A stretch of 39,771 nt of DNA, from positions 1 to 39,771 of IMG/VR virus record IMGVR_UViG_3300010370_000079, one strand, 5' to 3'. Shown here in pieces: positions 19,415 through 35,977 of this stretch (position 1 is the first letter of the stretch; each line of letters opens with the position of its first letter). This DNA comes from a virus. A program made the position numbers and the translations under genes. The notes below the pieces were generated by a model. The model did no database searches. It worked only from the letters and a program-made list of their open reading frames with translations, and was not told the origin of the DNA.

Positions 19415-19669
19415 TTATTCTTCTTCGATTGGCCTGGCCGGATCTTCTATAATCTGCGGTGCACCAATTCTACCTTGCGAAACAGCCTCTTCATATTTAC
19501 CCTGACTGCTTATTGTCTCCGCCATCACACCTGAAGGCGATACGGCTGAGAATCCAGCCATTTTGTCGCCTAGCGTCTTTACTTGAGCAGAGAGAATTAT
19601 ATTCTCTGCTGTCAAAGTATTTACCTTCTTGAGCAGCTCGTCAATTATTGTCTGTGGACTGAGTTCCAT
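19415..19669 (-). CDS. Small coiled-coil protein, unknown
   Basis: 84 residues. The N-terminal half is a heptad-like helix (IIDELLKKVNTLTAENIILSAQVKTL), clearly related to the plus-strand mini-protein at 12320-12460. The second half is polar, with Gly/Ser/Pro turns and an acidic end (DPARPIEEE). The start overlaps the preceding TauD-like gene by one base, so it is the last gene of the minus-strand operon. Possibly a trimerising or assembly factor; no family recognised. Confidence 0.6.
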   Translation of the reverse strand: MELSPQTIIDELLKKVNTLTAENIILSAQVKTLGDKMAGFSAVSPSGVMAETISSQGKYEEAVSQGRIGAPQIIEDPARPIEEE

Positions 19670-20643
19670 TACGGTTTAGCCTTCCTGAAATGCCAACTTT
19701 CATCGCTGTAGTCTATACCTGATTCAAAGCACCAGAAACCATCAAATTCTCTTTCCCCAGAAGAAAATCCAGCTCTCGCTGCGTGAATCATTATAAATAA
19801 ATCTGGAATTAGAAAATCACCCTGCTCCCACTCGTGGAGCCATATATTTTCCCCTGACCCTATCTGGATGGTTAACCACTCTTGTATTGATTTAAAAAAT
19901 TGATTATCGTCAATAGATGGCTTTTCCCCATTAACCGAAAAAAGAATATGCTGATTGCCCCATTGCTCAACACACGGACACAGCCTAAGAACCTCATATC
20001 CCATTAGCGGATGTTGCTGTATCGCACTATGGGCATTACTTGCTATCTCCATATGTCCATCCTTGGACCATATTTCTGACTGCAAGAGCGAGACCATTTT
20101 CATGAAATGAGATGTCATTTCATCCGGATCAGGCCTTTCTGTTACAAATATTGGGTAATGCATCAATTTTGATACTTTTAAGAATGAATACATATCCCTA
20201 GGCATTTTTTCAACAAGCTCAGAAGCATCTATGAAACCAGTCTGCCCAACACTGCTTGAGCACTTAAAGTTTCTCATATTCCAGCCCGCAGCGTGTTGGG
20301 TATGTTTTTTGTACATCCCCTCTAAATGCCATGGATTGACGAGTTTTGTGGAGGAGACCAGCGGTTTGAATTCTTTGTCTTCGCCTACTCTGTCATCGTA
20401 ATGCTGAGTGTATTTCCAGTTGGAAACTCTTCCGTTTTGTTTACTGTATGTTGGCGTCCAGTGAAAATGATTTGAAATCTCGGTCAGTACATCTATTGAT
20501 GTTTCATCACCAAGATTTGCCTCTCTAAAACAAAGAATTCCGTGAGTCTTTAATATTTCTGCATACTTGCTAGAATTTTTTGAAACTTCTAGAAGTCCAG
20601 GGTATTTAACAATGTATTGGTCTGACGATTTAATCCTCTTCAT
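19669..20643 (-). CDS. TauD/TfdA-type Fe(II)/2-oxoglutarate dioxygenase
   Basis: 324 residues from ATG 20643; a longer upstream reading is open but overlaps the preceding gene in another frame, so the shorter start is preferred. PWHLEG gives H106 and E108, a HxE variant of the HxD iron site. WEQGDFLIPD before IMIHAAR gives the distal H287, with R298 as a likely 2-oxoglutarate anchor. FKCSSSVGQT near 126 matches FTCSNDVGQT in the second TauD-like protein (26843-28420), so the two are paralogues. Substrate unknown. It overlaps the preceding P4H-type gene by 14 bases, which fits coordinated expression. Confidence 0.75.
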   Translation of the reverse strand: MKRIKSSDQYIVKYPGLLEVSKNSSKYAEILKTHGILCFREANLGDETSIDVLTEISNHFHWTPTYSKQNGRVSNWKYTQHYDDRVGEDKEFKPLVSSTKLVNPWHLEGMYKKHTQHAAGWNMRNFKCSSSVGQTGFIDASELVEKMPRDMYSFLKVSKLMHYPIFVTERPDPDEMTSHFMKMVSLLQSEIWSKDGHMEIASNAHSAIQQHPLMGYEVLRLCPCVEQWGNQHILFSVNGEKPSIDDNQFFKSIQEWLTIQIGSGENIWLHEWEQGDFLIPDLFIMIHAARAGFSSGEREFDGFWCFESGIDYSDESWHFRKAKP

Positions 20644-21604
20644 ATGGAATTTTTGTCCCAGTAGGGGCACCTTCAACTGATCTGCATTGTGATATAACCG
20701 TATTATTGTGAAGACCCAATGCGCGCTCAGTTGAGTCATCGAAATGTGAATAACCAGACTTAGAGAACTTCTCTGCATCTTGGTAAACAAATGGAAGATA
20801 AACAGGAGGAAGCCAATCTACGCTCTCCTGCGCTTCTCTTACCTCATCATTCTTTGCAACGCCATGACCAAATTGGGCGAGATACGTATACCTCTCTCCA
20901 CTTCTTATTGGCGCAACAGCATGAGTGCCTATGTAATTTGCCGGGAAAAATACTATGTCACCAGTATTCGGCTTGAGGGTCACGTCTGCATAGGGGAATC
21001 TAAACTCTCCGCCGTCGTATGAGTCGTTGAAGTAGATTATGGCATTTACCACTTGATACATAGCCACTTCTCTTTGTGAGAAGTACCTCTGTCCGTCTAT
21101 TACTCTGAAGTTTGTATCATTATCGTTATGCATTCCGAGAGATGCTCCCGGAAGGTACTTGAGAACATGACCACGGCCTTTCCACCAAATTGTGTTAAGT
21201 ATCAATGGATGTATGTCTATATATCTCATTAGACACAGATAAAGGGCGCGCTCACAGTCATTAAAAAATTTAACAATGTCTGGATCTGTATAGTCTTCTA
21301 CTGGGCCTGGCATTCCAAATCCACCCAGCCTCAATGGAAGTGCTAGTAAGTTCTCGTATGGCTGCTCGTTCCCCTCAAAGTCTCGAGCTTTTTTTACACC
21401 ATTTTCCTCATAGATCTCCAGACCGCAACTTGGCACATAGGAGTACTCGTCTATGTATGGCAATATTTTTGACTGCGGCACATCAATGACGGACTTGAAC
21501 TGCATAACGCCAGTTCCGTGATTGACATACTCAATTTTGTTTATTTCCTCACAACCAGTTGGACCCAATTTGGGGATCTCTAGGTGCTTTATGTCTAGCT
21601 TCAT
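20630..21604 (-). CDS. P4H-type Fe(II)/2-oxoglutarate oxygenase
   Basis: 324 residues; AGAGG lies before ATG 21604. The C-terminal half is a canonical double-stranded beta-helix: LGMHND gives H159 and D161, DGGEFRFPYADVTLKPNTGD is the typical middle, IGTHAV gives H228 and ERYTYL gives R238. The first 140 residues are a variable cap; its VNHGTGVMQF recurs as INHGYGVVEF before the oxygenase domain of 24851-26041. The family hydroxylates prolyl or other side chains or small molecules. The C-terminal tail after 250 is extra and may select substrate. Confidence 0.85.
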   Translation of the reverse strand: MKLDIKHLEIPKLGPTGCEEINKIEYVNHGTGVMQFKSVIDVPQSKILPYIDEYSYVPSCGLEIYEENGVKKARDFEGNEQPYENLLALPLRLGGFGMPGPVEDYTDPDIVKFFNDCERALYLCLMRYIDIHPLILNTIWWKGRGHVLKYLPGASLGMHNDNDTNFRVIDGQRYFSQREVAMYQVVNAIIYFNDSYDGGEFRFPYADVTLKPNTGDIVFFPANYIGTHAVAPIRSGERYTYLAQFGHGVAKNDEVREAQESVDWLPPVYLPFVYQDAEKFSKSGYSHFDDSTERALGLHNNTVISQCRSVEGAPTGTKIPYEED

Positions 21605-21624
21605 TTTTGCCTCTGTGTTGGAAG

Positions 21625-22395
21625 TTAACTAATCCTCTTCGTGACAGTTAATCCTACATCATATGGCAGGTGGTATGAAATGAAATCGCCCCTGCTGGCT
21701 ATGTATTTCCCATAATCCAAAAACTCGGAAGTTATCTCTGAATCTGCTGTCATATAGAGCATTCCGTAATCCGATGAATCAGAAAGAATGAACGTCCCGC
21801 CAACCTTTACAGAATCCATTAGTGATTCAAGGACCCTCATTGATGGTCTGTTTATGCCGAAACCAGTCGCTCTAACCATGTCGTAAGAATACGCCGATCC
21901 GCCAGATGTTATGTCAGCAGAGTCGATTGCGGAATATCTGATATTTGGATATTCCGAGAGTTTTTGTTCAGTAAGGTAGAATTTTTCAAAATAATATAAA
22001 TCAATATTATTTATGAATGTAAATTCTTTTGTTCTTTCAGACATGTAATCCATCATAAAAGACCATGGGAATTGCATGTATGTCAGAACTTTTTGCGGAT
22101 TTTCAGCAGTACCACCTGGTATCAGCAGGTCGTACCACATTTTTACTTGAGATATGTTCTGCCAAATGACATGAGCCAAATCGTCATTGACGGAAATCAT
22201 CGCTTCGTGCCAGTGGGCCTCCAGGTCTGTGCCAACAGCAACTGCCCTTCTATCCACGGCAGCCAATTCATGGAATTCTTTTATTTTTTTAGCGTAGTCA
22301 GATAGATCTTGAATTTCCGCAGAAAAAGATTCTTCAAGACCAGCTCTAGAGAGCCTTCTGGATATCCGGGCCCTATCGACCCAACCTCTAGCCAT
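21625..22395 (-). CDS. SAM-dependent methyltransferase-like protein
   Basis: 256 residues. The C-terminal half has the layout of a class I methyltransferase: strands FTFINNID (126-132) and IRYSAID (152-158), YDMVRATGF (171-179) in the place of the YDLI motif, then a helix and VKVGGTFILSD (197-206) like the KPGG-strand motif, and an end YHLPYDVGLTVTK. A clear GxGxG SAM loop is not visible, so it may be divergent or inactive. The N-terminal 100 residues are helical and basic at the start. The gene overlaps the one before it by 8 bases. A methylating role in the locus is an inference. Confidence 0.4.
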   Translation of the reverse strand: MARGWVDRARISRRLSRAGLEESFSAEIQDLSDYAKKIKEFHELAAVDRRAVAVGTDLEAHWHEAMISVNDDLAHVIWQNISQVKMWYDLLIPGGTAENPQKVLTYMQFPWSFMMDYMSERTKEFTFINNIDLYYFEKFYLTEQKLSEYPNIRYSAIDSADITSGGSAYSYDMVRATGFGINRPSMRVLESLMDSVKVGGTFILSDSSDYGMLYMTADSEITSEFLDYGKYIASRGDFISYHLPYDVGLTVTKRIS

Positions 22396-22723
22396 TTTGA
22401 TCAGACCTTATATATTTAGCTATTTTCAACCAGCGATTATTGCGCCTAAGAAGAAGACTAAGCTTTTGGAAGTTCTTATTTATATAAAATTCGTAGCCAG
22501 GCTTTATGCCAGATACTACGCTATCGACTTCGATTGACTGCCTTAGGACTGGAAATGATTTTTTGAGTTCAGAAATCATTTCTTCTATTTCATATTCACC
22601 GACAAGGCTGCCATCCATACCAGAGATGAACATTATTGCAGACATTTCTACTTCTATTTCATCTATTGCATTTTCCACTGAAAATGTTTTATTTTCAGTT
22701 TCCCAAGAGTTTCTTATGGGCAT
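22388..22723 (-). CDS. Unknown protein, 111 residues
   Basis: No family recognised. The first half is acidic and amphipathic (ENAIDEIEVEMSAIMFISG, EYEIEEMISELKKSFP). The second half is basic, with IKPGYEFYINKNFQKLSLLLRR. A purine-rich GGGGG site precedes the ATG, and the gene overlaps the methyltransferase-like gene by 8 bases. Alternation of charge and short strands suggests a small alpha/beta domain, perhaps a partner of the next gene product. Confidence 0.55.
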   Translation of the reverse strand: MPIRNSWETENKTFSVENAIDEIEVEMSAIMFISGMDGSLVGEYEIEEMISELKKSFPVLRQSIEVDSVVSGIKPGYEFYINKNFQKLSLLLRRNNRWLKIAKYIRSDQNG

Positions 22724-22729
22724 AAATCT

Positions 22730-23065
22730 CTACCCCCTCGCACTCTCTAGGATTAAGTAATAAATTGGTTCACTTGATTGATTTATTGAATTATTTGACT
22801 CAGAGTACATTGGGCATCGAATTATGTAATTGTCAGATGAAAATACTGGACAGTTAACCGAGCTATTCCAGGAAATTGTGTCATCAGTTCTGTCTATTGC
22901 TGGTTCCGGGGAGAAAACCTTGCCAGCTGGCGAAATACTAGTTTTTGATCTTGATATTCCAAGATTGCTGTTATATGCAGTTATGAACATCCCGTTTAAT
23001 TGGGCAGCTTCTTCTAACTTTTTTGCCCCTGATGCAATTTCAAAAATCTCTTTTGAGATCTTCAT
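22730..23065 (-). CDS. Unknown protein, 111 residues
   Basis: The ATG at 23065 overlaps the previous stop as TGATG; a TTG three bases upstream is also open but less likely. The N-terminus is a helix (ISKEIFEIASGAKKLEEAAQ), then Ser/Asn/Thr-rich strands with three Cys-free turns and a late CP pair (NCPVF, IRCPMYS). The composition resembles a small beta-structured virion or surface-linked protein, but no family is recognised. It lies in a tightly packed set of five small genes. Confidence 0.55.
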   Translation of the reverse strand: MKISKEIFEIASGAKKLEEAAQLNGMFITAYNSNLGISRSKTSISPAGKVFSPEPAIDRTDDTISWNSSVNCPVFSSDNYIIRCPMYSESNNSINQSSEPIYYLILESARG

Positions 23066-23298
23066 CAAACAATACTTTCTATGACTTCTACTTGTCTCTT
23101 AAGGCAATCAATGGCAGATTTGAGCTGCAAAACATTATCTGGCGTATATGAGCCCGTGCTTGGGACATCAAGATCTATTTCATTATCTATATTTTCTGGG
23201 TCAATGCCCAGCATGAGGCAGAGCATGTAACTGGAGTACTCCAAATACTGTAAAGCTTCATTTTTTGCTCTGGAAACCTGATTCTCAGATAATGCCAT
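23065..23298 (-). CDS. Small helical protein of the LGIDPD group
   Basis: 77 residues, AGAAGG before the ATG. Helical, acidic; YMLCLMLGIDPENID matches FELCEMLGIDPDSVS in the next upstream gene and a looser IDPDTLGEGW in the one before that, so these three neighbours form a small related group. The ending LKSAIDCLKRQVEVIESIV is a coiled-coil-like helix. No known function; may form heteromers with the neighbours. Confidence 0.6.
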   Translation of the reverse strand: MALSENQVSRAKNEALQYLEYSSYMLCLMLGIDPENIDNEIDLDVPSTGSYTPDNVLQLKSAIDCLKRQVEVIESIV

Positions 23299-23822: not shown

Positions 23823-23833
23823 ATTCAATCGAC

Positions 23834-24157: not shown

Positions 24158-24835
24158 TTATTCATAGTAGAACTCGCCAGTGTCAAGCGCTGTTGGTGGC
24201 AGATTTCTGTGCCACACATTGACAACCATGACGTTTCTTTTTCCAGACATTGCTGGAGTAGTCCCATGTAAAACGTGTCCGGCATCAAAGATAATTAGCC
24301 TATTTGCTTTACAGGCAATTCTTTCCCTCTTTGATACGTCAACCAGTAGTGGTGCGACAATTTCCTGCTCAAGAGCATTTTCACTAAAATCATCTATTAC
24401 CGATGGATACATTTCGAGAAATCCACCGTTATCGGCATCTGTTTCTGGACCGTAATAGACGCACCCTATCCTTGGTCCAGTGAGAACTTTCGTCTTGGCG
24501 TATCTGAAAGTATCCTCGTCAACGTGTGGCCCAAGATACTGGCCAGCATTGAATGTCCTCGTCCAGTACTCAAAACCACATAAATCGTCCAGTGGGAATG
24601 GAAGATTATTTTCCCATATCTTCTTTACAACTTCTTGCCTGATGGTCCTCGGCTGAGACTTGTGCCACCCATCCCAAAACATGTATGGGGCAAAACAGTC
24701 GGACTGCTCACTGTGGTAAGAATTTATTTCCGAAGCAATTCTTTCATCATCACCCATTGATCTGGGGAAAAATGAGTGATCATTGATTATTTTCAGACAA
24801 GTATCTTTGTCTAGGAAGTTATCGATTACTTTCAT
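24158..24835 (-). CDS. Fe(II)/2-oxoglutarate oxygenase (P4H-like, distinct subtype)
   Basis: 225 residues, nearly only a catalytic domain. LGPHVDED gives H104 and D106, FDAGHVLHGTTP gives distal H190 and GKRNVMVVNVW gives R200; the ten-residue spacing between H and R is the same as in the other oxygenases here. The first 20 residues (IDNFLDKDTCLKIIND) are the usual helix of P4H-type enzymes. It lacks the GGEFxFxYxD middle of the neighbours and has a longer insert (131-170), so it is a separate acquisition or strongly diverged. It starts 15 bases after the previous stop without a clear Shine-Dalgarno. Confidence 0.8.
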   Translation of the reverse strand: MKVIDNFLDKDTCLKIINDHSFFPRSMGDDERIASEINSYHSEQSDCFAPYMFWDGWHKSQPRTIRQEVVKKIWENNLPFPLDDLCGFEYWTRTFNAGQYLGPHVDEDTFRYAKTKVLTGPRIGCVYYGPETDADNGGFLEMYPSVIDDFSENALEQEIVAPLLVDVSKRERIACKANRLIIFDAGHVLHGTTPAMSGKRNVMVVNVWHRNLPPTALDTGEFYYE

Positions 24836-24850: not shown

Positions 24851-26041
24851 TCATATTGGCTTTATCTGGCCACTAACGCTCCCATGCCCAAAGAATTCAA
24901 GGTAGGAAATCCTGACGCCTGACTCAACGGGTCGTACTGCATGACTGCCAAGAAATCCGGAAGGGTAGATAATTAGTGTCCCATTTTTAGGTTTAAATAC
25001 CTTGCTTATATACTTAAACTCCAACTCGCCACCTTCGCACCTATCCGAAAGAATCAGCGACATCGACAGAACATTAAAAATTGGATTCTCGTTCTTGCCA
25101 GCAGTACCTATTGCATTATCGTGATGCATCCCCATGCCTGCAATAGGTGGGTAAGAGGCTATATGCGCATCCGTTCTCCATTGAAGACAGTCGTATACCT
25201 CTGGGTATATCCCGCGATATGCGTTAATGCACTTTGAAACACATATCTCTATGTTGTTATATAAGTCAATATCTTCTTTTGGTGATGACTCGTTGAACAG
25301 TTTCAGATATCTGCGCGGAGCTTGGTCCACCTGTGATTTTGTAAATCTATACCCGCCCCTATTTACGTAAAAGCCCTCATCGTCTATGTAGTAATCCTGC
25401 GGCTCGTCGGCTTCTCTTCTCATCATGTATTCATCAATAAACTTATTGTCTATATTTAGGGCATCGGGAAACTCAACAACCCCATACCCATGGTTGATAT
25501 GAGGCATGCAGTTTGTCCTATCTGCAACTTCCCTTTGTCTCTTTATTTCTTTAGCTGAGATTTCTGAAACTTTGCATTCAAATATTTCGCCATTAAATAT
25601 TTGACCAATCTTCCCAGCATCTTGACCGAATAGGTAAAGTGTCCTTTCGCCGTTTGGATCATTTTCGTGCGGATAAGGCCACCCGTATATTGATGCATCA
25701 ACATAACTAATTCCAGCACTATTGAGCATCTCTGAAAGATGATCTTCGTGCGATGCATCTCCAATGTGATTTGCATCTACGTAAATTCCAGAAAATTTTG
25801 CGTCTATTACAGATTTTGCATTCGGCATAACGCCAGCACCCATGCATATTGAAACAATGACATCACATTCTGTTGACATTCTCTCAATGGTGACCAAATC
25901 AATAAGATCACCGCTTTTCCCTCGTTCGATACTGGCATTTGACCTTCCCGATGAAGCCCAGTAAACGTCGTGACCATTGCGCTTTGCCGCCGTAGCTAGC
26001 GAATATCCCATTTTGCCAGTATGGAGTATTCCGACCTTCAT
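24851..26041 (-). CDS. Fusion: DUF1932-type NAD(P)-binding domain + 2-oxoglutarate oxygenase
   Basis: 396 residues, ATGA overlap with the previous gene. Residues 1-155 are a Rossmann domain like those of DUF1932-type 6-phosphogluconate dehydrogenase relatives: VGILHTGKMG (3-12), a possible NADP phosphate pocket SSGRS (30-34), CDVIVSICMG, and the IYVDAN and TLYLFGQDA strands seen in that family. Its usual helical catalytic domain is missing. Instead residues 180-396 are a P4H-type oxygenase: GMHHDN (H306, D308), ECGGEL-like CEGGELEF, LGSHAV (H367), GVRISYL (R377). The linker INHGYGVVEF is shared with the oxygenase at 20630-21604. A cofactor-coupled oxidation-reduction is possible. Confidence 0.85.
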   Translation of the reverse strand: MKVGILHTGKMGYSLATAAKRNGHDVYWASSGRSNASIERGKSGDLIDLVTIERMSTECDVIVSICMGAGVMPNAKSVIDAKFSGIYVDANHIGDASHEDHLSEMLNSAGISYVDASIYGWPYPHENDPNGERTLYLFGQDAGKIGQIFNGEIFECKVSEISAKEIKRQREVADRTNCMPHINHGYGVVEFPDALNIDNKFIDEYMMRREADEPQDYYIDDEGFYVNRGGYRFTKSQVDQAPRRYLKLFNESSPKEDIDLYNNIEICVSKCINAYRGIYPEVYDCLQWRTDAHIASYPPIAGMGMHHDNAIGTAGKNENPIFNVLSMSLILSDRCEGGELEFKYISKVFKPKNGTLIIYPSGFLGSHAVRPVESGVRISYLEFFGHGSVSGQIKPI

Positions 26042-26859
26042 TTCTGATCTCCGTTGTCTTTTAGCTTATAACCGGTTGTCATGTAGATGTTCGAGGAAAT
26101 TCTTGCTGCTTCAGGATTTGCAATCGGATCAATGACATTTTCAAGAACATCACTATTTGGCGTCCCCTGACAATACCAGCCAAGGTATGAGTATCTTGTT
26201 CCGGATGTAACTGGTTGAACCTCGTGAGCTGCGACGTAATTTGAAGGAAAAAATATTACAGAACCCTTTTTGGGCTTTATTGCTATATCGAGGTAATTGA
26301 AGTAGTGATGACCGCCAGTAAATCCAGTTCCATCGTTCTCTTCTTCGGTGTCGAAACAGTCATTGATATATGCGACTGTTGAAACTATATTTCTAGTTGC
26401 AAGTTGATCTTTTGGATGTGGCTTTCCATATTCATATTCTGTTTGAATATCTGCGTGAAGACCAAGAAATGAACCTTTTGGATAGGCAACTATATGTCCA
26501 CGTATTCTCCACCAAATACACTTTCCTGCCAGTGGAAATTTCCTAAGATAGTCTTGCAGGCATGAGTCTTTGACATCTTCAAGATAGTCAATTGTTTCCT
26601 GGACCCTTTTGTCTGAATTTTGATGTATCAAACTTCCACGCCATGGCATTACGTCAATAGAGTCTTTTTTGAAGAAGTAGTTACTCTTGTTTATGTATCC
26701 ATCTTCCCCGGTAATTGGGTCAACTCCAGGGGTGTACATTGCATCACGCTCCTGAGCCAGGGTTGCATGACAGAAATTCCTAACCCACTCCCAGTCAAGC
26801 GAAAATACTTCTTCGTAAAGAACAACACCGCCGCCAAGATGTTTACCGATCACGTTCAT
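26038..26859 (-). CDS. P4H-type Fe(II)/2-oxoglutarate oxygenase
   Basis: 273 residues from ATG 26859. This start aligns with the paralogue at 29136-29831 (MNVIGKHLGGGVVLY against MEVAGYLGHANAGIVLY) and has GGTGAG in front; upstream codons belong to the preceding gene's frame. GLHADI gives H135 and D137, GGHHYFNYLDIAIKPKKGS is the middle of the fold, VAAHEV gives H212 and TRYSYL gives R222. The WWRIRGHIVAYPKGSFLG segment resembles WWKGRGHVLKYLPGASLG of the enzyme at 20630-21604. Soluble, no signal peptide. Substrate unknown. Confidence 0.85.
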   Translation of the reverse strand: MNVIGKHLGGGVVLYEEVFSLDWEWVRNFCHATLAQERDAMYTPGVDPITGEDGYINKSNYFFKKDSIDVMPWRGSLIHQNSDKRVQETIDYLEDVKDSCLQDYLRKFPLAGKCIWWRIRGHIVAYPKGSFLGLHADIQTEYEYGKPHPKDQLATRNIVSTVAYINDCFDTEEENDGTGFTGGHHYFNYLDIAIKPKKGSVIFFPSNYVAAHEVQPVTSGTRYSYLGWYCQGTPNSDVLENVIDPIANPEAARISSNIYMTTGYKLKDNGDQK

Positions 26860-28420
26860 ACTCACCAAGATCAATCATGTATTGCATGTAGTCAATGATT
26901 CTTTCAATCAATTTTTTTCTATCTTCATTTGACTGAATGTGATTAAAACACCCATAAACGCTATCTATCGCAAATTGGACAAGGAAATCCTCTGGTGGTG
27001 GAGCTCCATTGAATTGCTCGTATTCAAAGAATGAAAGATTATGGTAATCCCATGGCCTAAATTTCAGTTTTCTTTGATGTGGAAACCAGCATGGGTAATG
27101 CCAAGCATGACCAGCATGCCGCATATCTGGGTGCATCTCAACGAGTGTTTTTACAAGTGGGACTGGTGCTGGTCTTCCGTCCTCGTATGGCTCGGTTCGG
27201 AATAAGTCATCGTCTGGCCCAAAACATCTTTCAAGATCGCCATTTTGGGTGAATAAGAACTTTTGCCCGAATAGTGGCAGTCCTGAAAGGTATGCCCTTG
27301 AAAACCTACGCATTCTGTCTTCAGATTTATCACTACCAACCCATGGTTCAACTGCAATAACTTTAAAGTCTTCATTGCCTATTGAATTCTGGAAATCTAT
27401 TACATCATTTGGGATGGATCCATCTTCCGAATAAACAAACATTGTAACTTTTTGATACAGGTGTGAATATTCGCTCAGCGCATAGATGCCTTTTGTAAAT
27501 ACAAGTGGGATATGGTCAGGGTTTGGTCCTACTGTATTGTCTCTCTCTACACCCTCTATGCTCCACGTATCCCCAAAGTCAGAATTTACCACTATCTTTC
27601 TATTCGGCTCATACTTGGGTTTCTCTTTGCCAACTTCGCATCTAGTGAATACTCTTTGATCATGCGACCAGCCAGGTGAAAAGGAGTGGAGAACTGCCCT
27701 GTTATCCCAGATAATAAGGTCACCCTCGCCCCACCACCATGTGTAACGAAGTTCCGGATTCGTCAACTGTTCCTGCATGTATTTCTTCAGATCGATAAAC
27801 CACTGTGGATTATCGTCTGAGTCAAGTCTCATGTCATGGCCAGACCAGAAAAGCATTGTCTCACCAGTGCATGGATGAGTTCTGAGCGCCGGGTGCTTGG
27901 GGAGTTCGTCTATTGATTCGCCAACAAACCCAGTTGCATTTATCAAATATGCATTTTCAAGATATGGCTTTATATGGTCAGGGCAATCTCTATATGCATT
28001 GACGAGACTATAGACATGCGTTTGACCAACATCGTTCGAGCATGTGAATTTATCCATTCTCACGCCAGTATAAGAAGGAACCTCTTCGAGGAATGGGTTA
28101 TCCATATGCCACTGTGAATTTATAAACCACTCAACATCTTCTGTCTGTGTATTCAGGTTTCCGGCATGTTTTTGGTCAAAGAGTAAGCCAGGCATCAAAG
28201 AAGAGTAATCATTATCGCCCTTATAGATGTGACGCATGATCTCGCAAAACTCTTCATTGCTGGGATTAAGTCCTATAAATCCGATCATTTTGTTTCTTAC
28301 TAATATTTCACCAAAGTAATCCGCATCATCGATCACTTCCCTTGGCGTAACGCCACGCACCTTGAAACCCAGATTTCCCAACCTGAGTCCAGCAGCAATG
28401 CCACCTTTTAATTTTTTCAC
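26843..28420 (-). CDS. TauD-type dioxygenase with a second, unknown C-terminal domain
   Basis: 525 residues from a GTG start at 28420 (GTGA overlap with the previous stop). Residues 1-270 are TauD/TfdA-like: SQWHMDNP gives H105 and D107, WWWGEGDLIIWDNRAVLHS gives distal H245, R256 follows. This copy keeps the classical HxD, unlike its paralogue at 19669-20643. Residues 300-525 are an added domain: strands VTMFVYSED and FKVIAVEPW, FGQKFLFTQNGD, then a His/Trp-rich stretch (HAGHAWHYPCWFPHQ) and a helical end. I cannot name this domain; glycosyltransferase-A-like or ligand-binding are both possible. Confidence 0.75.
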   Translation of the reverse strand: MKKLKGGIAAGLRLGNLGFKVRGVTPREVIDDADYFGEILVRNKMIGFIGLNPSNEEFCEIMRHIYKGDNDYSSLMPGLLFDQKHAGNLNTQTEDVEWFINSQWHMDNPFLEEVPSYTGVRMDKFTCSNDVGQTHVYSLVNAYRDCPDHIKPYLENAYLINATGFVGESIDELPKHPALRTHPCTGETMLFWSGHDMRLDSDDNPQWFIDLKKYMQEQLTNPELRYTWWWGEGDLIIWDNRAVLHSFSPGWSHDQRVFTRCEVGKEKPKYEPNRKIVVNSDFGDTWSIEGVERDNTVGPNPDHIPLVFTKGIYALSEYSHLYQKVTMFVYSEDGSIPNDVIDFQNSIGNEDFKVIAVEPWVGSDKSEDRMRRFSRAYLSGLPLFGQKFLFTQNGDLERCFGPDDDLFRTEPYEDGRPAPVPLVKTLVEMHPDMRHAGHAWHYPCWFPHQRKLKFRPWDYHNLSFFEYEQFNGAPPPEDFLVQFAIDSVYGCFNHIQSNEDRKKLIERIIDYMQYMIDLGEYERDR

Positions 28421-29139
28421 TTCGGCTCATCCAATCTCATGTGACCATCGTGTCGCGGGCCTATCTGTTGACCTTTTTCATCAAGGCCAGTCCTTATTCC
28501 GCCCATCCATGTCCAAGGCTGCTCGGTGACTTTCCTCATCTTTGCTTCCCCGTAGGAGGCCCTGGCATCCATTAGCTCTGGCTTATCCCAATAATTTTCT
28601 ACTTCAAATTCAACCATTGGCATCAATGAGGTGTCGTAGAACTGGAAAAACATAAATGGCATTCCAGATGGGAATGTCACTGGTTCTCCAATTTTCGTTA
28701 TTTTCCAATTCATATTGAACTCATCTGGCCACCAATCCGACGGGATTGTTGCAGTTAGGGGTACGGCTCCATCAATGAAATAGTTTGGAGCACCAGATAC
28801 CCATGTCCATATATTTTTTGGTGTAGAAAATGTCCATCCAGTTGTAAATGACATAATGCCGACAATACTTGGCATGACTATTGCTTTTTGATATTCATGC
28901 CCATCTGCTTGGAATGTTGCAAACTCACCAGAGAGAACTCTCGGAACTGACTGACCACCATCCCACTGAACAACAACATCATGCTGCAAAACCATCTCCC
29001 ACCCAGAGGTATTTGCCTCTGTAAGGGGAAGGCATTTGTATGCATGCTTGTTGTATGTGTCGTCCATCCAGTCGCGCCTAACTAGGCACTGCCGTATTTG
29101 AGGTGGATTCTGGTGAGTCCTAGTCAGGGCTACCTTCAT
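28417..29139 (-). CDS. DUF6065 family protein
   Basis: 240 residues. Two stretches are diagnostic in my reading: CLPLTEANTSGWEM with VVVQWDGG (36-62), and GWTFSTPKNIW, SDWWPDEFNMNW and VTFPSGMPFMFFQFYD further on. This is the pattern of DUF6065, a family without known function. It is joined on both sides by 4-base overlaps (ATGA with the P4H-type gene before, GTGA with the TauD-type gene after), so the three products are probably made together. Trp-rich composition suggests a beta-sandwich that binds a sugar or aromatic ligand; that is inference only. Confidence 0.65.
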   Translation of the reverse strand: MKVALTRTHQNPPQIRQCLVRRDWMDDTYNKHAYKCLPLTEANTSGWEMVLQHDVVVQWDGGQSVPRVLSGEFATFQADGHEYQKAIVMPSIVGIMSFTTGWTFSTPKNIWTWVSGAPNYFIDGAVPLTATIPSDWWPDEFNMNWKITKIGEPVTFPSGMPFMFFQFYDTSLMPMVEFEVENYWDKPELMDARASYGEAKMRKVTEQPWTWMGGIRTGLDEKGQQIGPRHDGHMRLDEPK

Positions 29140-29831
29140 GAAATGCTGGAAACCTGACCAGATGCAGCTGCTAGACCAGAAGTTGTAGACACATTTGACC
29201 CATAACTTCCAGTCTGATGATTTCTGTCGTTGTAGTCATACATTGTGACTGCAGAATATTTCGTACCCTTCGTCACAGGCATTGAGGCGTGTGCGTAGAT
29301 GAAATCAGACGGGTGGATGATTACATCACCCATTTCTGGGAAGAATTTAAGACCCTGATATGGCATGTAGTAATCACCACCCTCGTAACCGCCATTGATG
29401 TAGCCAATTGCCGAGACTGCACAGCTGTAAGAAAAACCAGAGTCTGGGTGAACGGAGAAGTGCTGCCCCTCTCCATACTTGACGAAATTTGTAGCCTCTT
29501 CATATTCCAGGGAGAGGTTATACAGACCAGAATAGTGCTTTACGCACTCTCTAACACCAGATATAACTTCTGTATAAATAGCGCCTAGATCTGAATAATT
29601 CTCATCAGTAATAGGAATATCGCTCTGTCGCAACTTGAAATCAAAGCAGTCTCTGTAATCTTTCATAATTACCTGATCGCCAACCATCGCCTGATTCCAC
29701 TTGTATCTATCACTGGCGCTGTCAGTAAGAACGGCTTCAAGTCGCTCTACAAAGTTGGAGTCAGATGGCCAAACGTTCTTGTAAAGAACAATTCCAGCAT
29801 TTGCATGCCCAAGATAACCGGCTACTTCCAT
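29136..29831 (-). CDS. P4H-type Fe(II)/2-oxoglutarate oxygenase
   Basis: 231 residues with a GGAGAG site before ATG 29831. FSVHPDSG gives H128 and D130, EGGDYYMPYQGLKFFPEMGD is the fold middle, FIYAHASMPV gives H181. The position normally held by the 2-oxoglutarate-binding arginine is lysine (GTKYSAV, K191), as in some P4H-type members. The N-terminus is related to 26038-26859. The last 30 residues are Ser/Gly-rich and probably disordered. It starts one base after the previous stop. Confidence 0.85.
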   Translation of the reverse strand: MEVAGYLGHANAGIVLYKNVWPSDSNFVERLEAVLTDSASDRYKWNQAMVGDQVIMKDYRDCFDFKLRQSDIPITDENYSDLGAIYTEVISGVRECVKHYSGLYNLSLEYEEATNFVKYGEGQHFSVHPDSGFSYSCAVSAIGYINGGYEGGDYYMPYQGLKFFPEMGDVIIHPSDFIYAHASMPVTKGTKYSAVTMYDYNDRNHQTGSYGSNVSTTSGLAAASGQVSSIS

Positions 29832-29832: not shown

Positions 29833-30471
29833 TTATTCTCTCCCTAGTTTTGTTATTGTATAAAAAGAAGGTGTTGTCCAGCGTTCGCCAGAGAGTATCT
29901 CCTTAACGCCATGCAGGTAATTTATATCCCCGGGATGGGCAACTGCAAGGCCCGGTTTTATCTCAACCTCAATACCGTGCTGTGGGTAGTATATTTCACC
30001 ACCAGTAAAGTGGTCATTCCAGTAAATTACTGAATTCAAATCATATGTAGGAAATGGGTTTGGGGTTCCATCATTTAGCTGTTTATCAGCATGTGGTGAT
30101 TGGCTATTCCCGGGAAGCCACCGGACAAGAACGGGAGGCCTACATGAAACTGTCACGTCATACTTTTCAGATATGGCCTCGGCCATTCTGTGTATATATT
30201 TATCAATAAGGCTGAAAATCTCTGGTGATATCCTTTTCAGGATCTCACCGCTGCACATTCTATCCCGCCAATACGATGAGTCATATATGCATGTTCCGTC
30301 ATCATTGAATTCGTCATCCTTGCCATTTTCCCACTCTGATATCGATGGAAAAAAATTCTGCATCACCTCGAGATCTTTTTTATCAACAAAATCTTTTATG
30401 ATTAATATATTCTTGCTTGAATTGCCAAAGTGGCCGGGCTCAACAAGTGATTTTTCTTCAAAGAATGTCAT
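29833..30471 (-). CDS. P4H-type Fe(II)/2-oxoglutarate oxygenase
   Basis: 212 residues. SPHADK gives H127 and D129, TGGEIYYPQHGIEVEIKPG is the fold middle, INYLHGVKEI gives H187 and GERWTTPSFY gives R197. The helical N-terminus contains ILIIKDFVDKKDLEVMQNFF, the usual first helix. It is a short, catalytic-core-only version of the group. It follows the carbamoyltransferase by 20 bases and has no clear Shine-Dalgarno, which suggests reading through from that gene. Confidence 0.85.
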   Translation of the reverse strand: MTFFEEKSLVEPGHFGNSSKNILIIKDFVDKKDLEVMQNFFPSISEWENGKDDEFNDDGTCIYDSSYWRDRMCSGEILKRISPEIFSLIDKYIHRMAEAISEKYDVTVSCRPPVLVRWLPGNSQSPHADKQLNDGTPNPFPTYDLNSVIYWNDHFTGGEIYYPQHGIEVEIKPGLAVAHPGDINYLHGVKEILSGERWTTPSFYTITKLGRE

Positions 30472-30491: not shown

Positions 30492-31973
30492 TTAATTAAA
30501 GATCTGCGATTCACCACCGAGTATTGATATTTCACTATTTTCTGCAGCCCAAACTGCTGCATCAACCTCATCATTTAGTAATGGTTGATTTTTTATATTT
30601 AAACTTGTGTTTAAAAGAATTGGAACTCCAGATATATTTTTCCATTCCTTTAGAACTCTGTACAGGCCAGGATGCTGTTTGGCTGTCACTGTCTGAACCC
30701 TGCTCGTGCCATCCACGTGAACAACTGCTGGTATCAGGGATGGGTTTTTGCACCTAACGGCAAACTGCATGTATGGAGACTCGCCATCCATTTCGAACCA
30801 CTCAGATGCATGTTCAGCCATCACAACTGGAGCGAATGGCCTAAACTTCTCTCTCTTCTTAATTTTGTTTACGGCATCCTTGTTTCCAAAAGTCCTCGGA
30901 TCAGCAAGAATGCTCCTATTACCCAATGCTCGCGGCCCGAACTCAGCTCGTCCAGACGCAACAGCAACTATGCCGCTATTCGTAAGTTCACTTATTATCT
31001 TGGAAACTGGATAATCTCCAGAAATATTTTTCCCTAGGTATGGACCATGCCATTCGACATGCCCCCCATATTCCGCTAAAGCTGCGCCGAGACTAGACCC
31101 AGCATCACCTGGATTTGGCATTATCCAAACATTTCTCCACATGTCGCTTATTAATGCATTCGCCTTGCAGTTGAGCGCACAGCCGCCCATGAATACAAGA
31201 TTTTTAGAACTAGATAAACTTTGGGCAAATCCCATTATTTCCAATAGGCGATCCTCATATACCGACTGGACGGAGGCAGCTATGTCATATCTGTCCTGTT
31301 CGGACATCACCGTATTGGGCCAATTAGGGATTCCTTTGTGCATATTTATGGGCTGGTGATTGAAATTGGGAAAATAAGAATTAACTGTTGATTTAAATAT
31401 GGATTTATCTCCAAATCCAGCCATCCCCATCAATATGTATTCCTCTTTCCCTGGCTCAAGTCCAAGCAAGTGGGTGAAGGCGCTGTAAAAAAGTCCAAAA
31501 GATACTGGGTAGCGAAGAGAAAATTTCTTACTGATTGATCTACCAGATGCTTGCCATATTGTTGCTGTTTCAAACTCTCCAATAGCATCTATGACGATAA
31601 TCGTTGCATTCGTGAATGTGGACGTATAGTAACCGGCAGCAGCATGAGATAGGTGGTGGCTATATTGTTTTTCCTTTATTGACTTTAGATATTCAAACTT
31701 ATCTCTATACAAATTTTTATATTCACCATTTATGCCACCGAATAGTGTTCTTCTTGCTTTTTTCAGCATTCTTTTTTCGAAATAAGCTACGGATGATGGC
31801 GTACCGTACGCAAGTGCATCATCCAGCAGCTCCGGGGATATGGAAAATGAATTTTTAATTTTGTCATAGCGCTCTGAATGCGCAGCAAATTTTATTTGTC
31901 CATCAACAACAACGCTCAATGCGGCGTCGTGGGACGAGTCATTTATTCCCCATATAATATTATTTTTGATCAT
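30492..31973 (-). CDS. Carbamoyltransferase, NodU/TobZ family
   Basis: 493 residues. The enzyme moves carbamoyl from carbamoyl phosphate, through carbamoyl-AMP, to a hydroxyl group. Family signatures are complete: GINDSSHDAALS (9-20), HHLSHAAAGYY (106-116), GGCALNCKAN (263-272), GRAEFGPRALGNRSIL (341-356), FRPFAPVV (378-385), and NTSLN (455-459). The length is a little below the usual 550-600. Known acceptors are hydroxyls of sugars, antibiotics and, in some phages, hydroxymethylated DNA bases. Being first in its transcription unit and surrounded by hydroxylases, it may act on a group they create. There is no Shine-Dalgarno before the ATG. Confidence 0.92.
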   Translation of the reverse strand: MIKNNIIWGINDSSHDAALSVVVDGQIKFAAHSERYDKIKNSFSISPELLDDALAYGTPSSVAYFEKRMLKKARRTLFGGINGEYKNLYRDKFEYLKSIKEKQYSHHLSHAAAGYYTSTFTNATIIVIDAIGEFETATIWQASGRSISKKFSLRYPVSFGLFYSAFTHLLGLEPGKEEYILMGMAGFGDKSIFKSTVNSYFPNFNHQPINMHKGIPNWPNTVMSEQDRYDIAASVQSVYEDRLLEIMGFAQSLSSSKNLVFMGGCALNCKANALISDMWRNVWIMPNPGDAGSSLGAALAEYGGHVEWHGPYLGKNISGDYPVSKIISELTNSGIVAVASGRAEFGPRALGNRSILADPRTFGNKDAVNKIKKREKFRPFAPVVMAEHASEWFEMDGESPYMQFAVRCKNPSLIPAVVHVDGTSRVQTVTAKQHPGLYRVLKEWKNISGVPILLNTSLNIKNQPLLNDEVDAAVWAAENSEISILGGESQIFN

Positions 31974-32110: not shown

Positions 32111-33184
32111 TCACGGCATTTCCTCCAGTATTGAAGCTGGTATCTCTTCTCCCAGCATTTGCTCAGCGTAATGTATTTGATCATGCAGACCGGGGTGTTG
32201 GCTATTTATTGATATGTACCAAAATTTCTCCTGACTTTCTGTCAGTGGTACATGATCACACGTCTCAAGTCTTGATGGCGCGCCATGCCTCCTCCACCTT
32301 CCATCTCCACCTATCTTCATCTCCATTTCTCTAAATCTGGCTATCTGATTAGTGGATGTTTCGAGACGCAGTTCAGATTTTCTTTTAATGGTGAAAACAT
32401 CATGAGAGTCAGCAAGGGACGGGTAGTTGGAATGAAACCAAGTCATACAATCGAATGGTATTTCCATAGATTCAAATATTTTCTTTAAGGAATGAAGTGC
32501 TGACATATTGGAAAAAGCAACTGTTTCTGGCGATATTAAATGTTTTTTACCCATGTGATCGACAAGCCGTAGTGGCTTATTTCCCAACCCCATATTGTTG
32601 TGCATATATGAATCAAATGTTTTTTCCCAGTAGGCATGACCAAATATTATTCTTCCGTCTTCAACACCTCCATCGGCATTAGATTCATTGCCTTCAGCGC
32701 TATTAATCCAAGAGTAGGGAAACCACAACCTATACGGGTCAGGCATTAGCGCTAGAACATGCTTTGGAGGTCCGAATTTCGCGGACGCATCCATAGTGAG
32801 AGCTGATATTTTTCTATACCCAGCCCCAACTTCTGAGTAATTATTTACTGTTTTGCCAGTAAACAGCTCAACGATTGATGGCCACGAATAATCAACCGGA
32901 AGCCCTTTTGAAACAGTGTACGAGCAGCCAATACACGCATAGTGCGGATTTTCTGAAAATTTTCTCATTGAGTATGGGGATGATTTTCCATCAAAATCAA
33001 CTATTCCATTGTCATTAACGTATTCATATGATTTATTTTTATCTATAAAACTTTTTTTTGTCTCCTCATCATATTTTGCTGTGTCATATATAGAGAAAAA
33101 AGCCCTATCTGCTGCAGGATTAGAGAAAAATGAAAGAGCGTAAAGTTCATTCGGGTTCAATAATTGATTCTTTATTTTCCTCAT
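32111..33184 (-). CDS. SGNH/GDSL hydrolase-like protein, copy 2
   Basis: 357 residues from ATG 33184, overlapping the previous gene by 38 bases; an ATG 42 bases earlier is open but deeper inside that gene. CIGCSYTVSKGL carries the block I serine in the GCSxT form frequent in phage members, WPSIVELFTGKTVNNYSEVGAG is block II-like, and the end has HPGLHDQIHYAE, which fits the C-terminal catalytic histidine block. A paralogue of 33941-35008 lies one gene upstream. The family hydrolyses or transfers acyl groups on sugars and peptides. The block III GxND is not visible. Confidence 0.6.
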   Translation of the reverse strand: MRKIKNQLLNPNELYALSFFSNPAADRAFFSIYDTAKYDEETKKSFIDKNKSYEYVNDNGIVDFDGKSSPYSMRKFSENPHYACIGCSYTVSKGLPVDYSWPSIVELFTGKTVNNYSEVGAGYRKISALTMDASAKFGPPKHVLALMPDPYRLWFPYSWINSAEGNESNADGGVEDGRIIFGHAYWEKTFDSYMHNNMGLGNKPLRLVDHMGKKHLISPETVAFSNMSALHSLKKIFESMEIPFDCMTWFHSNYPSLADSHDVFTIKRKSELRLETSTNQIARFREMEMKIGGDGRWRRHGAPSRLETCDHVPLTESQEKFWYISINSQHPGLHDQIHYAEQMLGEEIPASILEEMP

Positions 33185-33944
33185 GACAATGTTCTTCCTT
33201 TGGTTTTTGAGGGAGCATTTCCTCATCGATGGAGTCGATGTAACCCTTTGGAATTACTTTCCATATCTGTTCTGGATTATCAACCCTCTTCCACCAATTT
33301 CTATAAACTTCACTAACAAGACTCAGACAAATAGACCTAACTCCTGGCCAAAAGAGAGTAATTGTCATTCTTTCTCCAGATAAAAGCTTTGTTACACCGT
33401 GTGTATAAAAATGATTTGCCGGAAATGTGATTACGTCACCAGCGGATGGTTTGATTTTGTAATCAAGGTAGTTGAAGAAGAACTCTCCACCATCGTATTC
33501 ATCGGTTAAATAGACAACAGATGCATAATCGTTAAAGTGTTCCGATATTGGAACAGGAGGATTCTCATTACCCCTTTCCTCTATTATTAGTTCACCCCAT
33601 GGGTGCCCACTGTCGTTATGGGACTTGATTTCATCGCCAATCATCCATCTGTTATATGAAAGATTTGTCGGTACGAAGAGGAGTTGCCCGTAGTGTTTCT
33701 CCAGCTCCTCATGTATTTTATTTTTTATTTCTCTATCAATCTTGAGCAAATCTGGATTTTCGCCCTTTTCATTGCTTAACGTATAGTGCTGCCTTATATC
33801 TGGGTAATATTTTTCCTGTTTTACCCAGTCAGATTCCCCAAGGAGAAGATTTCTAAATATAGAAAGTTCTTCCTCTTTTAAGAAATTCTCTAAAACTAAG
33901 AGTTGTGGCGGCCTATTTCCGTATTCGATTCTTTTTGAGTTCAT
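33147..33944 (-). CDS. P4H-type Fe(II)/2-oxoglutarate oxygenase
   Basis: 265 residues, start overlapping the previous stop as ATGA. KSHNDSG gives H109 and D111, DGGEFFFNYLDYKIKPSAGD is the fold middle, FYTHGV gives H182 and ERMTITLFW gives R192. The N-terminal helix LVLENFLKEEELSIFRNLLL is typical. A tail after 205 is Lys/Glu-rich and probably disordered. It lies between two SGNH-like genes with overlaps on both sides, so the three products are likely a functional set. Confidence 0.88.
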   Translation of the reverse strand: MNSKRIEYGNRPPQLLVLENFLKEEELSIFRNLLLGESDWVKQEKYYPDIRQHYTLSNEKGENPDLLKIDREIKNKIHEELEKHYGQLLFVPTNLSYNRWMIGDEIKSHNDSGHPWGELIIEERGNENPPVPISEHFNDYASVVYLTDEYDGGEFFFNYLDYKIKPSAGDVITFPANHFYTHGVTKLLSGERMTITLFWPGVRSICLSLVSEVYRNWWKRVDNPEQIWKVIPKGYIDSIDEEMLPQKPKEEHCHEENKESIIEPE

Positions 33945-35008
33945 GGCATTTTCCTTAAAAAATCATTTCCGATTTTCTCCTCAAGGAGATGTTCTGCAAA
34001 GTGAATTTGATCGTGGATCCCAGGATGCTTGCCGATATCGCTAGCAACACTCCACCATTTTTCTTGATATTTAGTCTGTGGAAGATGGTTACATTCATCC
34101 CCAAAGCCAAGCCTTCTCCATGGTGTTCTATATATTTGACTTATTTCCGCTTCCCCATCCCACCAAGTGTCGTTCATTTTTGTTGAGCTTTTTATTAGAT
34201 TTTGTGATTTTAAAATTTGTGTATTATTCTCAAAAATTTTTGCTTGAACATAATTGTTTTCATAATGCTGAATTTGTGAAAGTAAGTAATTCAGCTCATT
34301 ATCCCATGAAGAAAATTTAAAGTTTATGTTATTAATTTTGCAATAATGCAAAAGCATTTCCAGAGAAGTAAAGCTATTGAAAATTGTTAAGTCAACAGAA
34401 GAAGTTGCCCTCCTGCCGCTGCTGTCAGAGAATACAAAAGGTTTTACTGTTTCTGGCTTATCGCTACCACTTGCAAATGAGTGGCGAACATCAAGAAAAT
34501 ACTCATGAACGTCGGTATGCCATGAAGCGTGAATTGTGTGATTTTTCTCGTTTCTCAGATCCGCATATGAGTTTATTGTCCACATTCTGTAAATATCTGG
34601 GAAAAGAGCTAAGACATTTTTGGGTTTCCCAAATTCAGCAAATGAGTCAAATGCGACGGAACAGAGAAACTCCATTCCAGAACCTGGTGAGGAGAGATTA
34701 TTGACCTTCGCCCCAGTAAGTTTTCTTATAATTGATGGCCACGAGTACTCTTCAATTAACCCCATAGAAACAGTGCATGAGCAACCAATACAAACAAAGT
34801 CTGGATTTTTCTCTAGGCCCACCCTTCCCCACGGAAGAGATGATCCGTCAAAATCAGTTATCCCACACAGATTTCTTCCAGGATAAGGCCTATTGCTGTC
34901 CCTTGGCTCAAGTGACTCTTCATATATGATCGCAAATGGATCTTCTACATTATTGCCAAATGATGAAACAATGGGGTCTTGCCCACTATTTCTTCTACTG
35001 ATTGACAT
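33941..35008 (-). CDS. SGNH/GDSL hydrolase-like protein, copy 1
   Basis: 355 residues from ATG 35008; a TTG at 35053 would add 15. The ATG gives an N-terminus of similar length to the paralogue at 32111-33184. CIGCSCTVSMGL carries the block I serine, YSWPSIIRKLTGAKVNNLSSPGSG is block II-like, VLALFPDIYRMW replaces block III, and HPGIHDQIHFAE near the end is the histidine block. The paralogues align over the whole length with about one third to one half identity in the core. Acyl esterase or acyltransferase activity on a glycan or protein modification is plausible. Confidence 0.6.
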   Translation of the reverse strand: MSISRRNSGQDPIVSSFGNNVEDPFAIIYEESLEPRDSNRPYPGRNLCGITDFDGSSLPWGRVGLEKNPDFVCIGCSCTVSMGLIEEYSWPSIIRKLTGAKVNNLSSPGSGMEFLCSVAFDSFAEFGKPKNVLALFPDIYRMWTINSYADLRNEKNHTIHASWHTDVHEYFLDVRHSFASGSDKPETVKPFVFSDSSGRRATSSVDLTIFNSFTSLEMLLHYCKINNINFKFSSWDNELNYLLSQIQHYENNYVQAKIFENNTQILKSQNLIKSSTKMNDTWWDGEAEISQIYRTPWRRLGFGDECNHLPQTKYQEKWWSVASDIGKHPGIHDQIHFAEHLLEEKIGNDFLRKMP

Positions 35009-35086
35009 ACAAGGATAATACTTCACGTCACGGTCCGCCAATGCGCTTACCAATCAGTTAAGTCTCAGACTGATACCATTCAAAAT
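35009..35086. promoter_or_regulatory. Divergent intergenic region
   Basis: 78 bases separate the SGNH-like gene (minus) from the oxygenase at 35087 (plus), the only divergent gene pair in the window, so promoters for both directions are expected. On the minus strand TATTAT lies about 12 bases before ATG 35008 with TTGGCG about 15 bases further up. On the plus strand nothing close to consensus is seen. Confidence 0.4.
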
Positions 35087-35977
35087 ATGATTAATTTTGA
35101 TCTTTCTTATAAAGAAATATATCCAAAAATATTTGTTTACAGGAATATTCTTCCCAATAAGGAACACATACATTCGATCCTTAGAAAATCGCTTGATTCT
35201 TCAGATGGTAAATATCATTTTGGGCAATGGAAAGATTGGTATGGATTTGGGAGGCTGTGCGAGCCAAAACAATACAACGTTTTAGATACAGATTTTTCAA
35301 ACCCGATGTACGATCACGAAAGATCAATAGAAGAGCAACTCCAGAACGTTATTAGTTCAGTATTTTCACACTACGTTGGAATAAATAATGTACCGATTCC
35401 GGATAATTCGATAATTTCAAGAGTTAGCTTTGCCGCATACTATGAGGGAATCGAGACAGGCAATGGAAATGTAATGCAATATCACACCGATTATATAGTT
35501 AGTCAACATTTCAGTAGATTTGAAAATTTTCTTCTTACATGCACAATTTACATAAATGATGACTATGAGGGGGGGGACATTAAATTCACCAGCCTCAATG
35601 GTGAATTTCTCAACTATAAACCAGAGGCCGGAGATGTCGTAGTTTTCCCATCTGGATCGCCAGTTTTCCCGGGAAGAGAGCCATATTTTCACGCAGTAAA
35701 AGCTGTAGATTCTGGTACAAAGTTTCTAATACGCTCTTTTGTTAAATATCAGCATGAAGGATCTGGGGAATGGTTGCTAAACGAAAAGATTTATGGAAAA
35801 AAAAGATGGATGGAACTCGAGCAGGAAAGAGTACTTAGTACTGCCGGAAGAGTTTCAAATCAGATGCAGCTCATTGATGGAGTAAAGCACTACTCCCAGT
35901 ATCTAGTTGATGCTTTTGGGTTTACTGAAGAAGATAAAAAGCAATTAGGTTATGAGGTTGGTGGATTTTACGAGTGA
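35087..35977 (+). CDS. P4H-type Fe(II)/2-oxoglutarate oxygenase, reversed gene
   Basis: 296 residues and the only plus-strand gene in the second half of the window. MQYHTDY gives H133 and D135, EGGDIKFTSLNGEFLNYKPE with AGDVVVFP is the fold middle, PYFHAVKAV gives H202, and TKFLIRSF puts lysine K212 in the 2-oxoglutarate anchor position. The C-terminal 75 residues (LNEKIYGKKRWMELEQER and on) are a helical addition absent from the others. No Shine-Dalgarno is seen before the ATG. It ends 10 bases before the end of the opposing peroxidase-like gene. Confidence 0.85.
   Translation: MINFDLSYKEIYPKIFVYRNILPNKEHIHSILRKSLDSSDGKYHFGQWKDWYGFGRLCEPKQYNVLDTDFSNPMYDHERSIEEQLQNVISSVFSHYVGINNVPIPDNSIISRVSFAAYYEGIETGNGNVMQYHTDYIVSQHFSRFENFLLTCTIYINDDYEGGDIKFTSLNGEFLNYKPEAGDVVVFPSGSPVFPGREPYFHAVKAVDSGTKFLIRSFVKYQHEGSGEWLLNEKIYGKKRWMELEQERVLSTAGRVSNQMQLIDGVKHYSQYLVDAFGFTEEDKKQLGYEVGGFYE

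Follow-up and report, generated by a model that had tools for sequence, protein, structure and literature searches.

A candidate tail-protein hydroxylation module linked to a Phe-x-Pro-x repeat in uncultured phages

INTRODUCTION

Genes resembling prolyl 4-hydroxylase (P4H) are abundant in aquatic phages, though their use by viruses has been called cryptic (PMC9301287). For one viral prolyl hydroxylase, vCPH of PBCV-1, peptide substrates from the virus itself are described (Eriksson 1999, as cited in PMC9301287), and PF13640-type oxygenases dependent on 2-oxoglutarate (2OG) occur in number in aquatic phages, with 24 2OG oxygenase genes reported in the cultured cyanophage S-SCSM1 (PMC9602691) and eight types of 2OG-Fe(II) genes in pelagiphages (PMC9599517). 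No substrate was identified in those cyanophages and pelagiphages (PMC9602691, PMC9599517), and the enzymes have been assigned to host metabolism (PMC9602691). Here, we analyze a 39,771-nt (39.8 kb) stretch of viral DNA, IMG/VR virus record IMGVR_UViG_3300010370_000079 (hereafter, the window), in which a block of ten 2OG oxygenase genes lies beside a gene for a tail protein ending in Phe-Pro-Pro-x (FPPx) tetrapeptides. We propose that this block probably serves the maturation of a tail protein, with Phe-x-Pro-x repeats as the substrate of its prolyl hydroxylases.

P4H-fold enzymes that act on tandem short proline repeats are familiar from the collagen P4H system, extensins, and mussel foot proteins. 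To our knowledge, these hydroxyproline repeat proteins of animals and plants share no homology with the phage repeat, which would be part of a virion. There is also a likeness to PBCV-1: vCPH (PDB 5c5t) is a virus-encoded enzyme of P4H fold with proposed repetitive, proline-rich viral targets, it is among the fold matches of one enzyme of the window (P4H_5), and in the window, too, a proline-repeat protein is linked to the enzyme genes. However, PBCV-1 is a eukaryotic algal virus with, as far as we know, a single enzyme and other repeats, and has neither a DUF6065 protein nor a multi-enzyme run behind a tail gene. Many oxygenases per phage were already known (PMC9602691, PMC9599517), but as far as we searched, neither the combination found here nor its consistency has been described, and the string FPPFFPP was not found printed in the literature searched.

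RESULTS AND DISCUSSION

A tail protein with a conserved proline repeat

In the window, the product of the gene at 36875-37423 has a PASTA-like domain followed by a tandem tetrapeptide array, (FPP[F/H])~23. A degenerate FPPx pattern gave 21 overlapping matches in the window versus none in shuffles, and Phe and Pro are constant across the repeat units while the Pro codons vary over all four, indicating that selection on the protein maintains the repeat and that it is no fresh DNA duplication. Its units are not of the Gly-X-Y (GXY) type of collagen substrates. The first-pass annotation, made from the sequence alone, had named a virion protein as one possible target of the oxygenases, but did not connect them with this gene, which lies just outside the interval it delimited and which we regard as the key to the locus.

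Searching IMG/VR for the degenerate pattern recovered at least 119 viral contig stretches, with the repeat on tail proteins carrying fn3, PASTA-like, or S74 domains, the last a chaperone domain typical of tail fibres. The repeat often forms the C-terminal tail of fn3 proteins, followed by S74 in one case and by an intein-like domain in another. Three FPPx tail proteins (L135:3-785, L115:3762-5012, and L188:1759-3075) run on into an intein/Hint-like domain, recognized on L135 by a match to PF14890 below the cut-off (E 2e-5) and on the other two by eye, a hint that the tail tip may process itself. Across 257 Gb of bacterial and archaeal genomes the pattern gave 57 matches, mostly single; two of the multi-copy cases examined, L309 and L337, from metagenome-assembled genomes of Verrucomicrobiales and Gammaproteobacteria, are phage-like contigs with PASTA-like-FPPx genes, apparently mis-binned.

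Linkage of the repeat and the oxygenases

Genes matching PF13640 (2OG-FeII_Oxy_3) were present in 45 of 50 repeat-bearing records (median 6, maximum 11) versus one of 50 random, length-weighted viral contigs (Fisher p 3e-21). Because so few random contigs have any such match, chance is excluded as the source of the cluster. As a control for kinship we examined 49 records, comprising 48 relatives of the window's baseplate-J gene and an overlapping contig, G001; the repeat occurred in 9 of the 12 records with at least five PF13640 matches and in none of the 37 with fewer, the three exceptions (G002, G044, and G046) being short contigs that may truncate the cassette.

Detailed reading of 40 repeat-bearing contigs showed that few families accompany the repeat consistently. 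P4H-type enzymes of the P4H_6/7 group were present in all 40, P4H_5 and DUF6065 in 39 each, tail fibres in 38, and P4H_8 in 27, versus at most 14 for each other oxygenase group. The core therefore comprises the repeat protein, P4H_5, P4H_6/7, and DUF6065, with the carbamoyltransferase and TauD-type genes of the window outside it. The 2OG gene nearest to the repeat lay within ~2.2 kb in nearly all 40 contigs, usually at less than 1 kb and in many within 100 bp; it was often the very next gene, and in most contigs on the same strand.

Baits chosen regardless of the repeat gave the same picture. At least 570 viral contig stretches encode DUF6065, and among the 80 loci read, with the repeat counted in six frames since longer opposite-strand open reading frames (ORFs) hide this GC-rich sequence from ORF-based counts, it was found in 63, including all 32 loci spanning at least 16 kb and 40 of the 42 with 5.5 kb available upstream, versus 0 of 64 random loci. 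Most DUF6065 loci lacking it have little upstream sequence. The first-pass annotation had proposed looking for the same gene order in other phage contigs; in 63/63 DUF6065 loci having the repeat, it stood upstream at a distance of 1.5-7.7 kb and shared the strand of DUF6065. With P4H_5 as bait, the repeat was upstream on the same strand in 61 of 80 loci and downstream only in none; among the 28 loci with >6.5 kb upstream, 22 had it; of the other six, five carry FNPG or FGPS tetrapeptides upstream of P4H_5. What FPPx, FNPG, and FGPS have in common is Phe-x-Pro-x, the feature that a prolyl hydroxylase substrate would keep. Across independently selected loci, the repeat and the P4H cassette are near-inseparable.

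Organization of the locus

Tail and baseplate proteins are encoded on the plus strand up to 19.4 kb, with a Baseplate_J match above the cut-off at 12767 and, at 9704, an S74 chaperone domain. Between 19.4 kb and the right end, the minus strand carries almost all genes, tightly packed or overlapping, and the overlapping contig G001, from the same phage, has the same gene order. The block of oxygenases that the first-pass annotation placed at 19669-35977 is real, but belongs to a larger unit, a minus-strand run reaching, but for the plus-strand gene at 35087-35977, from the gene at 37442-39769 down to 19415. Its features, from the first gene of the run, are as follows.

37442-39769, minus strand: tail-fibre-like structural protein (phrog_697, E 5e-44), first gene of the run, running off the window end
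36875-37423, minus strand: PASTA-like domain (PASTA E 6e-4, below cut-off), then ~23 FPP[F/H] units ending in FPPSFK; proposed substrate
35988-36872, minus strand: glutathione-peroxidase/thioredoxin-like protein adjoining the repeat gene (GSHPx E 7e-5, below cut-off)
35087-35977, plus strand: P4H_8, P4H-type 2OG oxygenase (PF13640 E 9e-9)
33941-35053, minus strand: SGNH-hydrolase-like protein 2, by eye only (GCSCT...PG.HD..H); no family match
33147-33944, minus strand: P4H_7, P4H-type 2OG oxygenase (PF13640 E 3e-8)
32111-33226, minus strand: SGNH-hydrolase-like protein 1, apparent paralogue of 33941, by eye only; no family match
30492-31973, minus strand: NodU/TobZ-type O-carbamoyltransferase (Carbam_trans_C E 2.5e-54, Carbam_trans_N E 1e-33)
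29833-30471, minus strand: P4H_6, core P4H-type 2OG oxygenase (phrog_2297 E 7e-14, phrog_61 E 6e-12)
29136-29831, minus strand: P4H_5, core 2OG oxygenase of predicted prolyl-hydroxylase fold (PF13640 E 9e-7)
28417-29139, minus strand: DUF6065, core partner, predicted dUTPase-like beta-barrel (PF19541 E 6e-40)
26843-28420, minus strand: TauD-type 2OG oxygenase extended at its C-terminus (TauD E 7e-23; TauD/TfdA relatives in PDB, E 2e-12)
26038-26874, minus strand: P4H_4, P4H-type 2OG oxygenase (PF13640 E 1.6e-12)
24851-26041, minus strand: P4H_3, N-terminal NAD-binding Rossmann-like domain (sub-threshold) and P4H-type domain (PF13640 E 4e-9, residues 293-383)
24158-24835, minus strand: P4H_2, divergent P4H-type 2OG oxygenase (PF13640 E 5e-6)
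21625-22395, minus strand: conserved cassette protein, no family match; small partners at 22388, 22730, 23065, 23313, and 23834
20630-21604, minus strand: P4H_1, P4H-type 2OG oxygenase (PF13640 E 6e-10)
19669-20790, minus strand: TauD-type 2OG oxygenase (TauD E 1.5e-12)

The homologue of the first, tail-fibre-like ORF is longer in G001 (1291 amino acids). A glutathione-peroxidase-like homologue adjoins the repeat gene in G012 and G019 also; the window protein matches the NCBIfam glutathione peroxidase model below the cut-off (E 2e-10 over 69 residues), and a search for this protein in deposited phages found none. The Rossmann part of P4H_3 is a separate gene in relatives, and weak homologues of the 21625-22395 protein adjoin a homologue of 22388 in G002 and G042. 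When the carbamoyltransferase was used as bait for relatives, the overlapping contig of the same phage alone was recovered. The small ORFs encode small, helical-looking sequences and were considered as precursors of ribosomally synthesized and post-translationally modified peptides. The ~260-residue C-terminal extension of the 26843-28420 enzyme is unexplained. The 5' end of the ORF at 19669 is placed too far out, its TTG start falling within the upstream gene, and translation more plausibly begins near 20643.

Ten oxygenases of several families

The first-pass annotation had predicted ten 2OG oxygenases within 16 kb, eight P4H-type and two TauD-type, and all ten ORFs are present where it placed them. 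PF13640 matches above the Pfam cut-off in seven (20630, 24158, 24851, 26038, 29136, 33147, and 35087) and TauD in two (19669 and 26843), giving 9/10 by Pfam, while the tenth (29833) has no Pfam match and is placed by the PHROG profiles listed above. The described HxD/E, distal His, and Arg/Lys were seen in every case, the Arg/Lys ~9-11 residues after the His, and Arg replaces Lys as the 2OG-binding residue in several window oxygenases other than P4H_5. The first-pass annotation's description of ten in one locus as exceptional was overstated; the number is high but not unique, given S-SCSM1 and the many relatives with 5-11 PF13640 matches each. The eight P4H-type enzymes share ~19-38% mutual identity where alignable, which argues for an old assemblage of several families without recent tandem amplification. 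Three PHROG families named DNA endonuclease (V) or ferrochelatase (phrog_2297, phrog_274, and phrog_3531) match plain 2OG oxygenase domains of the window; these labels look wrong or denote fused domains, and phage annotations may come to inherit them.

Structures were modelled for P4H_5 and DUF6065. P4H_5 (predicted local distance difference test score, pLDDT, 86) is prolyl-hydroxylase-like in its predicted fold: its best PDB matches are prolyl hydroxylases, led by the Pseudomonas putida enzyme solved with EF-Tu, with a (Ser-Pro)5-bound algal P4H, PHD2, and PBCV-1 vCPH also among them, and its profile matches the Bacillus anthracis P4H (E 7e-7). H128, D130, H181, and K191 are invariant in 51 homologues, K191 being the Lys ~10 residues after the distal His, in the position that binds the 2OG C5-carboxylate. 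Across 334 cassette domains, no HxD...H ligand is missing from more than one of the rows that have a residue at its position. The DUF6065 model (pLDDT 89.5) matches dUTPases best, though weakly (E about 4e-4, template modelling score 0.3-0.4 by query length). A second family of ~250 amino acids without a Pfam match occurs in 23 of the 40 repeat contigs (e.g., L391:12667-13464 and L353:16953-17729), and its C-terminal GTPxxQIxPF stretch resembles DUF6065 by eye.

Hosts and phage backbones

Of 37 records that bear the repeat or are related, 20 carry WhiB, a marker of actinophages (PMC6802176), versus 1 of 37 random ones, which suggests actinobacterial hosts. A cyanophage origin was rejected, with psbA/D in 0/37 of the same records. 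The FPP repeat was absent from the DNA read around three cyanophage or marine-virus 2OG genes. In cyanophage S-CAM7 (L351), a P4H-like gene (9860-10456) lies a few genes downstream of a tail-like protein of 1545 amino acids (3206-7843) that contains 23 collagen-like GXY blocks; the two may form a parallel pairing. Two backbones carry the module, marked by the baseplate-J gene and by a Phage_portal gene, respectively, and did not overlap among the contigs read. A relative without FPPx, G028, carries in the corresponding variable region a gene that by eye resembles flavin-dependent tryptophan halogenases (contig 139182-140672, L102:182-1672).

Proposed mechanism and alternatives

In the proposed module, the tail protein is encoded first and followed on the same strand by the P4H-type 2OG/Fe(II) oxygenases, with P4H_5 and P4H_6 as the core, and DUF6065. 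The P4H enzymes would hydroxylate the prolines of the repeat, most likely the third-position Pro common to FPPx, FNPG, and FGPS, while DUF6065 may serve as a substrate- or assembly-binding partner. The product would be a hydroxyproline-rich tail tip that touches the host surface and might benefit the phage, and the other oxygenases, carbamoyltransferase, peroxidase-like, and SGNH-like proteins could add lineage-specific modifications. The hydroxyproline could in turn be glycosylated. The Skp1 hydroxyproline pathway combines a P4H with a GT60 GlcNAc transferase, and in the relative G042 a PF11397 GlcNAc transferase gene (contig 7549-8562, L096), of a family that we take to include the Skp1 enzyme, lies near the FPPx tail protein and beside a 2OG gene; unlike in the Skp1 pathway, the transferase is outside the window and was seen in one relative.

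Several observations weigh against this reading. The 2OG fold does not fix the target residue, as P4H-like folds act on other residues too, and a peptide is not an obvious target of the accessory enzymes. Five of the 50 repeat-bearing records, some of them short, have no PF13640 gene, and L410 and L420 carry P4H_5 and/or DUF6065 with 8-10 kb upstream and no FPPx, though L420 has collagen-like repeats. The contigs are related, so that p-values overstate their independence, although the module recurs in two non-overlapping backbones. It is also conceivable, if improbable, that the cassette modifies the tail protein at other residues (Asp, Asn, His, Phe, or Lys of the fibre), the repeat being a marker of tail type. 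Relatives add Asp_Arg_Hydrox, PhyH, and 2OG-FeII_Oxy_5 enzymes, P4H_5 is the sole oxygenase modelled, and the repeat units hold Phe, His, and Tyr as well; yet this core enzyme folds like prolyl hydroxylases, and loci without FPPx mostly have other Phe-x-Pro-x repeats, as expected if the repeat proline is the target.

The remaining explanations place the substrate outside the tail protein. We doubt that a surface sugar or metabolite is what the oxygenases, carbamoyltransferase, and Rossmann domain remodel, with the repeat as a hitch-hiking host-range gene. The NodU-type carbamoyltransferase, the two TauD-type enzymes, and a cyanophage 2OG cluster that sits with glycosyltransferases would suit such tailoring, but carbamoyltransferase and TauD are outside the core, and hitch-hiking is disfavoured by an order and strand kept in 63/63 loci. 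Of the pathway that the first-pass annotation envisaged for a virion protein, glycan, or nucleic acid, a glycan target may hold for accessory genes (the TauD pair and the carbamoyltransferase), whereas repeat linkage and P4H_5 fold support the virion protein. Action on host proteins or 2-oxoglutarate levels, as proposed for cyanophages (PMC9602691), seems very unlikely: the top fold match of P4H_5 was indeed solved with EF-Tu, but the cassette lies in a tail gene run directly behind the tail protein, and host takeover needs no repeat protein, from which the cassette is near-inseparable. Hypermodification of nucleic acid by TET/JBP-like oxidation and then carbamoylation hardly merits credence. 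A carbamoyltransferase is present and P4H_7 has a sub-threshold Tet_JBP match (E 0.0027; 17.4 bits versus a cut-off of 34.9), but PF13640 is the better match, no TET/JBP match is above the cut-off, no methyltransferase family matched in the cassette, and both the tail-region location and the repeat linkage speak against it. An anti-phage defence island was also rejected, as the sole PADLOC matches, found for two oxygenases, were to a generic CRISPR-associated 2OG model.

CONCLUSION

Here, we provide evidence for an ordered, near-obligate partnership that joins two P4H types and DUF6065 to a tail repeat, and which yields a testable enzyme-substrate hypothesis for tail-protein maturation by prolyl hydroxylation. 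Whether it is a widespread system of uncultured actinophages, in which prolyl hydroxylases and a DUF6065 partner of possible dUTPase fold produce a hydroxyproline-rich, possibly glycosylated Phe-x-Pro-x adhesin, is a broader claim for which we judge the chances about even. DUF6065, for which a profile search of 50,697 deposited phage genomes gave no match despite its frequency in uncultured viral contigs, gains a first context. If our proposal is true, hydroxyproline repeat proteins would join phage virion biology, comparable in principle to extensins and mussel foot proteins, and viral prolyl 4-hydroxylases would gain a defined job.

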